Origin: Planctomycetota bacterium
Lineage (GTDB): Bacteria > Planctomycetota > UBA11346
Assembly: GCA_022841245.1 (NCBI GenBank)
Contig: JALHRW010000034.1
Span: 1-33,046 of the forward strand
Direction: 5' to 3'
Length of the DNA stretch: 33,046 nucleotides
Below the pieces are notes generated by a model. That model saw only the letters and a program-made list of their open reading frames with translations. It did no database searches and had not been told where the DNA came from. A program made the position numbers and the translations under genes. Below, piece after piece: positions 1-21,627 of the stretch (position 1 is its first letter; the number at the start of each line of letters is the position of its first letter).

Positions 1-593
1 CGCGCGCCGCGGTCGTCGCTCAGCGACCACGGGGCCCGCGGCCCGGTCGGCGTGAGGGCGACCAGGCAGGTGCGCGCCAGGGCGAGCGGGTTCCACGCTC
101 CGAGCCCTTCGCCGCCACGGCCGGTCAGCGCCGCCACCGGCGGACGGCTGGCATCGTCAGCCCAGCGTCCGGCGGCCAGCAGGCCCTCCCACGCAGCGCC
201 TTCGCCGGCGCCGACGGCAGCGCTGGCGTCCTCCAGGCGGGCGAGTTCGTAGAGCGACATCAGCGGGCCGGCATCCCAGCCGGCGAAGCCGGCCAGCGCC
301 GGCAGGGCGCCGCAATGCAGCACGGCGTCCTCCTCCGCCGTGCCGTCGCCAGGGGCGCGCACCAGCAGACGGGCTCCGCCGGCGCCTTCCCAGCGCAGGC
401 AGGGGCGTGGCAGGCCAGGCATCTCCAGGCCGGAGACCCCGCCGAGGCGCAGCAGGTCGGGCAGCACGTGATTGCCATGCGGCAGCGAGCTGGCAGCCAG
501 TCGCGTCCCGCCGTGGCGCTCCAGCCAGCGCAGCAGCAGCATCGCTGGCGGCAGCGAGCCGTCGGGCATCAGCGGCAGGTTCGGCAGGTCCAC
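1..593 (-). CDS. Partial GH38-like (alpha-mannosidase-type) glycosidase, C-terminal part beyond the window
   Basis: This minus-strand frame is open from the left edge to about 593 and ends almost every codon in G or C, which marks it as coding. Near its start it reads LPDLLRLGG, then a CLRWEGAGGARLLV stretch. These resemble the part of GH38 alpha-mannosidases where the 'WWEGPDGSRVL' segment lies. Later comes AWNPLALART, which resembles the 'FNPLSWxRT' start of the GH38 beta-sandwich. GH38 enzymes hydrolyse alpha-mannosides using zinc. The usual N-terminal HxD metal motif is not seen: the frame begins only about 40 residues before the WEG segment. I chose the GTG at 593; an in-frame ATG at 674 would add 27 residues that do not look coding. 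The gene is either a short or degenerate paralogue or something else with a similar fold. Its other end is outside the window. Divergent from the methyltransferase at 688. Confidence 0.5.
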   Translation of the reverse strand, partial: MDLPNLPLMPDGSLPPAMLLLRWLERHGGTRLAASSLPHGNHVLPDLLRLGGVSGLEMPGLPRPCLRWEGAGGARLLVRAPGDGTAEEDAVLHCGALPALAGFAGWDAGPLMSLYELARLEDASAAVGAGEGAAWEGLLAAGRWADDASRPPVAALTGRGGEGLGAWNPLALARTCLVALTPTGPRAPWSLSDDRGA

Positions 594-687
594 GCCGGCA
601 TGCTCGGGATGGTGGTGACACCGGCAAGACCGGCCCCTGCCCGGACCCTTGCGTCCGGGGTCTCGCGCTGGCATTCTGCATGCTCGC

Positions 688-1269
688 ATGCCCGTCCGTC
701 AGGCGATCCATTTCCTCGGCCAGGCAGCCACCCATTTCCGCCAGACCGGCGCGATCGCGCCCAGCAGCCGCCGCCTCGCTCGTGAGCTGGCCCTGGCGGT
801 CGGCGACGTGCCACCTGGCGGCGTGGTCATCGAACTCGGCCCCGGCAGCGGCAGCGTGACCGAGGCACTGCGCATCTGCCATCCCGCCGCCGCAGTCATC
901 GCGGTGGAGAACAATCCGGCCTTTGCCCGGCGCTTGACCGATCGTCTGCCAGCGGTGCATGTGGTTCACGGCTGCGCCTCGGCCCTGCCCGAGCACCTGC
1001 GCCGTTTCGGCCACGACCGCGCTCAGGTCGTAGCGGTGGTCAGCGGTCTGCCGTTGCTGTCGCTGCCGCCGGATCTGGTCGCGCGCATCTTCGACTCGGT
1101 GCGCGACGTGCTGCTGCCCGGTCGCCGCTTCGTCCAGTTCACCTACAGCGCGCGCGCCTTCCGCCGCCTGATCCCGACCGGATTCCACGCCGAGCCGCGC
1201 CGCCGGGTGTGGTTCAACGTCCCGCCGGCGGTGGTCCTGCCGTTCACGAGGATGGGCGACGCCGCCTGA
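688..1269 (+). CDS. Class I SAM-dependent methyltransferase, PmtA/phospholipid N-methyltransferase-like
   Basis: A 193-residue protein with the layout of the phospholipid N-methyltransferase family (COG3963), which is related to KsgA rRNA dimethylases. The N-terminus reads FLGQAATHFRQTGAIAPSSR, matching the 'FLxxxxxxPxxxGAVAPSSR' opening of that family. Motif I is VIELGPGSGSVTEAL (roughly residues 47-61), followed by AVENNPAFARRL, where the acidic residue should bind the SAM ribose. The family can methylate phosphatidylethanolamine toward phosphatidylcholine, but other substrates are known, so the lipid target is inference. The start is ATG 688; upstream TTG extensions are unlikely, and no clear Shine-Dalgarno is visible. 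The stop overlaps the ATG of the next gene (TGATG), suggesting coupled translation. Confidence 0.75.
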   Translation: MPVRQAIHFLGQAATHFRQTGAIAPSSRRLARELALAVGDVPPGGVVIELGPGSGSVTEALRICHPAAAVIAVENNPAFARRLTDRLPAVHVVHGCASALPEHLRRFGHDRAQVVAVVSGLPLLSLPPDLVARIFDSVRDVLLPGRRFVQFTYSARAFRRLIPTGFHAEPRRRVWFNVPPAVVLPFTRMGDAA

Positions 1270-19895: not shown

Positions 19896-20717
19896 CTACC
19901 CCACCGCCCCGCGGCATGCCATCCGGTAGGCGCGCGGGCTGCGTCCGTGGCGGAGGGTGAAGAGGTGGCCGAGGCGGGCGCGGCCGATGCCGCAGCCGGC
20001 GGCGATCGCGCTGATCGGCGTGTCGGTGAGAGCGAGCTGGCGTTCGGCCCAGCGCAGCCGCATCTCGGTGAGCAGCGCGGTCGGCGTGTCGCCGGTAGCG
20101 GCGCGGATGCTGCGGCTGATATGCTCGCGCGAGCGCTTGCTCAGCCGGACCAGGGCCGAGAGGCCGGCGGACAGCAGCGGCGGTTCGGCACAGCGCGACA
20201 GCGGGCCGGCCAGCCAGGCCGGGGCGTTGCGCCACAGGTCGGCCTGACGCGGGCGCAGTCGGTCGAGCAGCGTGGTGAGGAACGCGTCGCGCGCGAGGCG
20301 GTCGTCGGGGCCGGTGCGCAGCGTCTCGATGCGCCGGCCGAGGGCAGCGATGTCTTCGGACGAGAGGCGGCGCACACGCGGCTCGTGCTCGTCGCCCCAC
20401 AGCCCGGCGCAGTCATAGTAGGATTCGAGGGTGTTCAGCACGTTGGCCGGGAAGGCGATGTTGACGATGACGCCGATCTGGTCGTCGACGCCGCGGATAT
20501 CGTGTTGGTGGTGCGGCCGGACCAGGACGATGTCGCCGGTGGTCAGCAGCCGCACGCTGCGGCCGGTGTCGTGGCGCACGGCGCCCATCTCGACCCACAT
20601 CGCCTCGGCGAAGTCGTGGCCGTGGCGCCCGCTGCCGTGGCCGGGATGGTAGAAGCTGCGTGCGACATGGCAGCCGGCCGACAGCGGAAGCAGATCCTTG
20701 AAGCGCAGGCGGCGCAT
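19896..20717 (-). CDS. AraC-family transcription regulator, ChbR-like
   Basis: A 273-residue regulator. The N-terminal cupin-like sensor shows GRHGHDFAEAMWVEMGAVRH and LTTGDIVLVRPHHQHDIRGV, close to the pattern in ChbR, the E. coli chitobiose regulator. The C-terminal ~100 residues hold two helix-turn-helix units: LSKRSREHISRSIRAATGDT and the second one in ALTDTPISAIAAGCGIGRAR, followed by LGHLFTLRHGRSPRAYR, the conserved end of AraC proteins. In E. coli, ChbR controls an operon that includes a GH4 enzyme (ChbF), so proximity to a GH4 gene here is suggestive. It probably senses a sugar and controls the GH4 and secreted genes. ATG 20717 begins MRRLRFKDLL. The palindromic element lies just upstream. 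Confidence 0.88.
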   Translation of the reverse strand: MRRLRFKDLLPLSAGCHVARSFYHPGHGSGRHGHDFAEAMWVEMGAVRHDTGRSVRLLTTGDIVLVRPHHQHDIRGVDDQIGVIVNIAFPANVLNTLESYYDCAGLWGDEHEPRVRRLSSEDIAALGRRIETLRTGPDDRLARDAFLTTLLDRLRPRQADLWRNAPAWLAGPLSRCAEPPLLSAGLSALVRLSKRSREHISRSIRAATGDTPTALLTEMRLRWAERQLALTDTPISAIAAGCGIGRARLGHLFTLRHGRSPRAYRMACRGAVG

Positions 20718-20759
20718 GCCGTAGCGTATCGGGAATTGGCGGGTCCGCCAGCTTGGGAG

Positions 20760-20920
20760 CTAGCAGGCTGCGGGAAAAACTCCGTTTTTCTCGCAGCCTG
20801 CTAGCCTCGATTCCCCCGGGGGCGACCTGCGGTCGCTATTTTCCCCGGAAGAATCGAGGTCTGCTTTTTTGCCATGGGGACCAGACGGCCCCGCAGGCTG
20901 CTTTTTCCGCAGCCTGCTAG
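20760..20920. mobile_element. MITE-like composite palindromic element
   Basis: A 161-base non-coding unit with inverted ends CTAGCAGGCTGCG (20760-20772) and CGCAGCCTGCTAG (20908-20920); the match continues inward as GGAAAAA/TTTTTCC apart from one extra G. A second copy of CGCAGCCTGCTAG at 20792-20804 closes a fully paired left hairpin with loop TCC. A middle structure pairs CCTCGATTC (20805-20813) with GAATCGAGG (20851-20859) and contains GCGACC-TGC-GGTCGC. A right hairpin pairs GCAGGCTGC (20893-20901) with GCAGCCTGC (20909-20917). No ORF is inside. It could also be a REP/BIME-type repeat; no target-site duplication is clear beyond the palindromic CTAG ends. Confidence 0.7.
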
Positions 20921-21627
20921 TGCACGAAGTCGGGGGCCGCCTCGTCGAGCTGCGACACGGTGATGCGCAGGATGGTGCCGAGGTGGTTGTTCAGGCTGTC
21001 CTGGATGAAGGTCAGGGTGCCGCCGATCGAGGACGAGCACGAGCCGCAGGCCCCGTGGTACTGCACGATCAGTTCGTCGCCCTGCAGGTCGACCAGATCC
21101 AGCCCGCCGCCGTCGCTGGCCAGGGCGGGGCGCACCTGCTGGTCGAGGACCAGCTCGATACGCCGCACCTTCTCGAACAGGCCGACCTCGCTCCACGGCA
21201 GCTGGTCGGAGGTGGTCGGCGATTCCTTCGGCTTCTCCAGCGCCTGCACCGCCTTGGTCAGGACGAAGAACGGCTTGTCGCCGTCGAGCGCGACGTCGAA
21301 GGCCGGCGTCGTGCCGCTGCCGCGCAGCACCGCCTCGACTCGGCGGGGCGTGATCGTCGCTGCGTCGACCAGCAATCCGCCGAGCAGCATCTCGGTCATG
21401 GCGTCGTAGGCCGCCAGCAGTTCGTCCTTGGCGTTGGAGCGGAAGCGCGCGTCGGCGACCACGCCACCGGCATCGACCAGCACGGTCAGGCGGATGTGCT
21501 CGGGAGCGGCATCGGCGCCGTGGGTGGCGACGATCAGACGGCAGCCGTGAGCCGCAGCGTCCCCTTCCGTAAGGTCGCCGACGAAGCGCAGGGCGGAGAG
21601 GCGGGCACGGACGACATCGGAGGGCAC
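20917..21627 (-). CDS. NifU-like protein: degenerate IscU-like domain plus Nfu iron-sulfur domain
   Basis: A 236-residue protein. The N-terminal ~110 residues have the IscU scaffold pattern (IRLTVLVDAGGVVADARFRS, then AYDAMTEMLLGGLLVDAATI), but the three scaffold cysteines are missing; the only cysteine in that half is Cys29. The C-terminal part (about 148-236) is an Nfu domain: VRPALASDGGGLDLVDLQGD and HGACGSCSSSIGGTL, with CxxC at Cys194 and Cys197, which holds a bridging 4Fe-4S cluster in a dimer for delivery to target proteins. It probably acts as a cluster carrier rather than an assembly scaffold. GTG 21627 is the only start in frame after an upstream stop. Its TAG stop lies inside the right end (CTAG) of the palindromic element. 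Confidence 0.82.
   Translation of the reverse strand: MPSDVVRARLSALRFVGDLTEGDAAAHGCRLIVATHGADAAPEHIRLTVLVDAGGVVADARFRSNAKDELLAAYDAMTEMLLGGLLVDAATITPRRVEAVLRGSGTTPAFDVALDGDKPFFVLTKAVQALEKPKESPTTSDQLPWSEVGLFEKVRRIELVLDQQVRPALASDGGGLDLVDLQGDELIVQYHGACGSCSSSIGGTLTFIQDSLNNHLGTILRITVSQLDEAAPDFVH

Follow-up and report, generated by a model that had tools for sequence, protein, structure and literature searches.

The window examined here is a stretch of 33,046 nucleotides from a Planctomycetota bacterium (GCA_022841245.1, contig JALHRW010000034.1). Between a downstream AraC-type gene and a NifU-like gene, whose end enters it, the window holds a 161-base segment dominated by inverted repeats. The question raised by this locus is whether the segment is a mobile element, a repeat of the REP type, or a regulatory RNA or terminator. 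The initial annotation, made from the sequence without database searches, proposed a composite palindromic element, either a miniature transposable element (MITE) or a REP-type repeat. Comparison with related genomes makes it very probable that the unit is a non-autonomous MITE of IS5 type with an unusual covarying core.

Architecture of the unit

The unit is arranged in the order CTAG, end repeat, hairpins H1, H2, H3 and H4, end repeat, CTAG (Table 1), and the interval first proposed (20760-20920, 161 bases) coincides precisely with one unit. The 13-base inverted ends described there are contained in terminal repeats of 19 nt (20760-20778 and 20902-20920; 95% complementary). A third copy of the arm, at 20793-20804, does close an internal hairpin, H1, although this is nearly perfect rather than perfect (arms 20759-20780 and 20784-20805; 22 nt, 95% complementary). 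The other hairpins are H2 (arms 20805-20821 and 20843-20859; 17 nt, 88% complementary), H3 and a short H4. The 12-mer GCAGCCTGCTAG occurs three times in the window when one mismatch is allowed, all three copies being exact, against 0.17 expected; no exact copy was found elsewhere in the same genome. Folding bears out the impression of far more structure than an ordinary spacer possesses: 171 nt fold as DNA at -61.2 kcal/mol (z -9.6) and as minus-strand RNA with z -10.4, and in neither case were any of 200 shuffles as good. The size of 161 bp, the lack of coding capacity and the 19-nt inverted repeats fall within the ranges for MITEs (70-300 bp, non-coding, repeats of 15-30 bp). The statement that the segment is free of ORFs has to be narrowed, since the minus-strand NifU-like gene ends within it (stop at 20917-20919) and it is entered or crossed by long mechanical ORFs.

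Table 1. Features of the unit and its flanking genes in the window
Feature	Position	Strand	Basis or remark
Whole MITE-like unit, H1-H2-H3-H4, 161 bp with target tetranucleotides	20760..20920	+	R1 hit at G000:C34:20760-20920 (120.9 bits); 145-163 bp in the 19 full units gathered
CTAG target tetranucleotide, left	20760..20763	.	Relatives with CTAG/CTAA/TTAG 4-bp direct repeats at both ends
Terminal inverted repeat, left, CAGGCTGCGGGAAAAAC	20764..20780	+	Resembles IS5-type ends CAGGCTGCTGAAAAAC / CAGGCTGTTGAAATAC
Hairpin H1, 45 nt, two end repeats head to head	20760..20804	+	H1 of about 31-33 nt in other aligned units
Hairpin H2: 17-bp variable outer stem; 6-bp apical stem GCGACC/GGTCGC with TGC loop	20805..20859	+	Fold, covariation
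H2 bulge TATTTT, 6 bases	20837..20842	+	Retained (single-base variants) in copies with replaced apical stem
Hairpin H3, GGGGACCAGACGGCCCC, short G-rich stem	20876..20892	+	Fold, aligned copies
Hairpin H4, short, approximately the reverse complement of H1	20893..20917	+	Inverted-repeat search, fold, aligned copies
Terminal inverted repeat, right, CAGGCTGCGGAAAAAG on the minus strand	20901..20916	-	Inverted-repeat search, end-pattern scan
CTAG, right, in which the NifU-like gene has its TAG stop	20917..20920	.	ORF 20917..21627, minus strand; orthologues stop at the same residue
NifU-like gene entering the unit	20917..21627	-	Pfam NifU, NifU_N
AraC-type regulator, downstream of the unit	19896..20717	-	Pfam HTH_18, AraC_binding

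Distribution among related genomes

The genome containing the window (G000; 5.73 Mb in 548 contigs) holds the window copy, a degenerate copy in contig C114 (82% over 113 bp) and a third match in C63. A DNA search gave matches in 10 of the 23 genomes of the same Planctomycetota family, which also make up the class-level set. A full-unit covariance model (R1) matched 12 of the 23 genomes, the best 128 candidates being scored per genome: at least 72 matches in G012, 55 in G011, 25 in G013, 16 in G014, 11 in G004, 10 in G021, 4 in G001, 3 each in G000 and G020, 2 each in G007 and G010, and 1 in G019, counts which hold a few both-strand duplicates yet may miss copies. A model of the H2-H3 core (R2) gave at least 167 matches in 10 of the 23 genomes (best 150 candidates scored per genome), none of them in a family genome beyond those matched by R1. 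From the phylum, 246 genomes were drawn, at least 16 of which belong to the family; under stricter filters (E <= 1e-6, best 12 candidates) eight were matched, none outside the family. When named genomes were scanned with a single form of the H2 core, 25 stretches were returned, of which 22 are labelled Planctomycetota, two Candidatus Kuenenia and one "bacterium". Plasmid and phage collections gave no match in distant search mode.

The idea of a repeat spread through the genome is true of the relatives, with up to 72 model matches, and hardly of the host of the window, with three; many copies with variable flanks are present in G011, G012 and G013. In G000, from which the family has nearly vanished, the window copy appears to be a survivor, and the unit is classified as a MITE because of the evidence from the family in relatives, not because of its copy number in G000. 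No description of this miniature-transposon family was found among open-licence full texts; it is a new family of a known kind, with a variant architecture.

Ends, target duplication and likely partner insertion sequences

The end pattern CTAGCAGGNTGNNGAAAAA occurs at 29 places in 7 of the 23 genomes, and its reversed control at none. In G013:C654 two such ends face each other 1.28 kb apart and delimit an insertion sequence (IS) with CTAG-CAGGCTGCTGAAAAAC at either end, the first 20 bases of the ends being alike at 17 positions. Its transposase, of 362 amino acid residues, matches Pfam DUF772 and DDE_Tnp_1 as well as NF033581 (NCBIfam IS5 family; 256 bits, cut-off 140). A second IS, in G005:C43, possesses the ends CTAG-CAGGCTGTTGAAATAC and CTAG-CAGGCCGTTGAAATAG, alike at 15 of the first 20 bases, and a transposase 55% identical to the G013 protein, its IS5 assignment being by identity only. 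Both elements are bounded by CTAG on either side, and the features sought in an IS5-family partner, a DDE transposase and a 4-bp repeat of the CTAG/CTAA type, are both present. E. coli IS5 is reported to make 4-bp CTAA/CTAG repeats (PMC11677980, PMC10379815). The search for a transposase with matching ends, which the initial annotation recommended, succeeded in these two relatives and not in G000. None of the draft contigs of G011, G012 and G000 yielded a complete IS bearing these ends; the transposase matches comprise two partial ones in G012, none in G011, and a partial one in G000 that lacks such ends. A missing IS is weak evidence because draft MAGs lose multi-copy IS. IS and unit track poorly across genomes, G005 having the IS and no R1 unit, and a pattern scan for the H2/H3 module inside the two IS found none. 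An IS630-family transposase gene (L081:2344-3474; NF033545, 270 bits) directly adjoins the IS5-type element of G013:C654.

Because CTAG is its own reverse complement, the window copy by itself does not distinguish a target duplication from longer inverted ends. The outer tetranucleotides were therefore compared in 82 copies: 31 carry CTAG, five CTAA and three TTAG at both ends, and 43 have unequal ends. In 33 copies, decayed ends included, the left tetranucleotide is not self-complementary; the right one repeats it directly in eight, in inverted form in one and in neither form in 24, and the sole inverted case is a tandem junction (L115). This excess of direct over inverted tetranucleotides is predicted by target duplication and not by an extended inverted repeat. 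The 82-copy set includes L115 926-1086. It leaves out reverse-strand echoes of palindromic copies, L012 (contig end), two core matches in L027, lower-scoring or partial matches (L002, L014, L020, L021, L025, L163, L164) and weak ones in L030, L082, L083, L089, L142 and L150 (second matches). At L083 (G004:C51:51307-51325 and adjoining bases) a solo 33-nt palindrome of H1 type stands between CTAGs without H2-H4 sequence.

Covariation and modularity of the core

In 40 copies, picked by a pattern on the apex and freed of two chance matches (L021:1467, L025:77), the outer stem of H2 includes each of the four Watson-Crick pairs at 7 of 20 counted positions, and the apex is nearly fixed. An alignment of 19 sequences, mostly full units, reveals both-sided changes at 26 of 49 pairs and a covariation score of 0.330; shuffled alignments give 0.115 (0 of 500 as high), slid partners no more than 0.121, and none of the five observed measures was reached in 500 shuffles. 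For the core alone (17 sequences) the score is 0.443, compared with 0.132 after shuffling (0 of 500) and a maximum of 0.184 with slid partners; the count of further pair types was reached by 5 and the both-side changes by 1 of 500 shuffles. These values are somewhat inflated, sequences and structures having been picked in part for pairing. The apical stems are swapped as a whole (GCGACC/GGTCGC; GCTCC/GGAGC in G011; GGCGC/GCGCC in G014; GCAGCC/GGCTGC in G000:C63), and the bulge is kept across these swaps except for its first base.

At two adjacent positions of the G011 apical stem, the new bases stand in the 5′ arm only in three copies, which keep the old 3′ arm, and in both arms in seven. Such half-converted copies are the footprint expected of template-switch correction, although selection could produce the same. 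The two-base swap separates L133, L139, L145-L148 and L150 from L151-L153, a possible template-switch series. Hairpins maintained by template switching are reported to show multi-base compensatory stem changes (PMC8794818), a likeness to the present case; those described there are in RNA genes, whereas here the DNA is repeated and mobile. With dozens of dispersed copies the stepwise compensation of a stem can be traced, which makes the family a data set for weighing template-switch correction against structural selection.

Tandem repeats of H1-H2-H3 are found in G004:C50 and G012:C461, and H2-H3 arrays devoid of IS5-type ends in G012:C464, G013:C642 and G013:C8, two of which reach contig ends. 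The tandem cores of L027 (G012:C464), L016 (G013:C642) and L022 (G013:C8) lie about 90 bp apart, without H1. A lone core lacking IS5-type ends and having a wholly different apical stem is located at L163:925-1057 (G000:C63:21824-21956), between stretches that resemble tRNA genes. The core possibly has a history of its own, because H2-H3 occurs without IS5-type ends. It could be a palindromic module in its own right, mobile or selected, captured between such ends, a tentative reading, compatible with a MITE, which we judge somewhat less probable than not. The lone core and the core-only arrays speak for it; these copies may nevertheless be decayed units minus their ends, and the core model, as given above, adds no family genome to those found with the full unit.

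Stop codons as probable insertion sites

The coincidence of the unit with gene ends was counted in 81 copies, one tandem copy of L115 being left out. Of 73 coding-like ORFs entering a copy, 33 end on a terminal tetranucleotide (TAG/TAA), 35 before it and five inside the unit; 31 of the 54 copies with such an ORF have a stop on a terminal tetranucleotide on at least one side. A looser count places 39 of 119 ORF ends on a tetranucleotide, 22 on the left one and 17 on the right one. The NifU-like protein of the window ends at the same residue as the proteins of G020, G021 and G022, three congeners in which the unit is absent after this gene, and the native stop in G021 reads CCCTAG. Likewise, the gene to the left of the G021:C343 copy stops where its orthologues do, none of which adjoins a unit; those of G020 and G000 (79% each) have a native TAG, that of G022 (57%) TGA. 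The genes at the insertion ends are untruncated in both loci compared. At both, the gene on the far side differs in the relatives; the comparisons are one-sided, and no two-sided empty site was seen. The IS of G013 sits at the stop of ORF 7..1035, which resembles uvrC.

As a control, 67 CTAG outside copies were classified, 11 being at called stops, 17 inside called genes and 39 elsewhere. Copies lie at stops in 31 of 81 cases, compared to 11 of 67 for all control CTAG (p 0.004) and 11 of 50 for non-genic CTAG (p 0.06), the latter a modest, marginal enrichment. Given the control proportion at stops, a special preference of the insertion machinery for gene ends is not needed; target choice together with the loss of harmful insertions may be sufficient for most of the coincidence.

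A different explanation of the same location is a cis-acting RNA or terminator at the 3′ ends of genes, selected copy by copy, with covariation reflecting RNA structure. This we regard as unlikely. The very stable fold, the strong covariation, the position at gene ends and two matches to a stem plus T-run pattern (0.3 expected) would suit it. Against it, the three congeners have no unit at the end of the orthologous gene, and the unit has no fixed strand, since ORFs end on either tetranucleotide. Nor is G-T favoured over A-C among mismatches in H2 (15 vs 33, in copies of at least 95 bits); over all four hairpins the numbers are 58 and 96 (p 0.003), the opposite of what plus-strand RNA would predict, and RNA-level selection by way of G-U tolerance was rejected on this ground. 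Rfam models matched 20500-21200 only as three weak microRNA-model hits, far below gathering. The initial annotation had reserved a cis-regulatory RNA or terminator for a sequence both unique in the genome and conserved at this position; the unit is nearly unique in G000, yet the three congeners lack it behind the orthologous gene. A unique cis-regulatory hairpin was rejected on the family-wide copies and the orthologue comparison.

Comparison with known systems

The other proposal of the initial annotation, a REP/BIME-type palindrome, here mobilised by a Y1 HUH transposase (RAYT) able to read hairpins and the flanking tetranucleotide, did not stand up and is in our view very improbable. Nested hairpins, the H1-H2-H3 tandems of G004:C50, the core-only arrays and the gene-end location are all reminiscent of REPs, and PF01797 matches are present in 20 of the 23 family genomes. 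Yet the 20 Y1 loci examined contain only scattered weak single matches (arm or core with two to three mismatches, and one G/C hairpin) and no assembled unit, and the two distributions disagree, PF01797 being unmatched in G013, with its 25 R1 matches, and matched 13 times in G015, which has no unit. The ends, moreover, are IS5-type inverted repeats with 4-bp duplications, those of a DDE element. GTAG/CGTC-tagged REPs are likewise reported as palindromes near gene ends, single and grouped, with GTAG-ended ones often supplying TAG stops; they differ in being 20-40 bp long, tagged at one end and linked to IS200/IS605-type transposases (PMC3733652), whereas the present unit is two-ended, about 160 bp long and flanked by CTAG-type tetranucleotides.

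Bacterial MITEs such as RUP, NEMIS, Bcr1, ERIC, YPAL, Nezha and EFAR are described as 70-300 bp long, non-coding, bordered by terminal inverted repeats, located near genes, robustly folded, and mobilised by transposases recognising their ends (PMC3733652). The unit is unlike those listed in combining an IS5-type YTAR target, head-to-head ends forming a terminal hairpin, and a separate covarying core of two hairpins. We know of no listed MITE with that combination. With the IS5-family elements of the two relatives it shares end sequence and CTAG target; it differs from them in its length of about 160 bp, the absence of a transposase gene and the H2/H3 module. As the initial annotation first suggested, a miniature transposable element is indicated, by variable-flank copies in relatives, 4-bp target duplications and two IS with matching ends.

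Proposed mechanism

The ends and duplications suggest that an IS5-family DDE transposase like those of the relatives would recognise CAGGCTGY..GAAAAAC-like ends and move the 153-bp body, and that a 4-bp target, mostly CTAG, would be duplicated on insertion. Insertions inside genes would presumably be lost. Insertion at a CTAG holding the TAG stop of a gene would leave the protein unchanged, since the junction restores the tetranucleotide; gene ends would thus be safe sites, as the coincidence of ends and the two orthologue comparisons support. Stop codons could thereby serve a CTAG-targeting element as harmless landing sites. The pairing of the H2-H3 core has most likely been kept through coordinated change, by template-switch correction of near-palindromes with some selection for the fold. 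In the window genome the family would be nearly gone, leaving one near-intact copy, two degenerate matches and, as far as found, no IS with these ends. The family of miniature transposons described here, with its likely partner IS, belongs to an uncultured lineage of Planctomycetota.

Base of the terminal hairpin

Hairpin H1 pairs across the left target tetranucleotide. Ends were readable for this count in 65 of the 81 copies. In all 18 readable copies of G012 the internal H1 base complements the tetranucleotide base adjoining the end repeat (11 G-C, 4 A-T, 3 T-A), seven of which are matching copies with a base other than G (L105, L107, L110, L112, L115, L121, L123); the probability is 3e-5 within G012 with copies treated as independent, though they are not. 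One further non-G matching copy is L032 in G021, and in G011 the match fails in five of five non-G copies. For L105 and L110, with CTAA on both sides, the base is target-derived; in the other non-G copies the right end differs, is decayed or is a tandem junction. Post-insertion correction and pairing-based target choice would both explain the G012 match. That the terminal hairpin reads its target seems to us quite doubtful; were an internal guide to choose the target, this would be a DDE-type miniature element with guide logic, a logic otherwise known to us only from IS200/IS605. If correction after insertion is rapid, the family would be a natural recorder of template-switch repair, differing between genomes. 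The H1 apex GAAAAACTCCGTTTTTC is common to the window (20760-20804) and to L011 near 1489-1531 in G010, and the stems beneath it differ.
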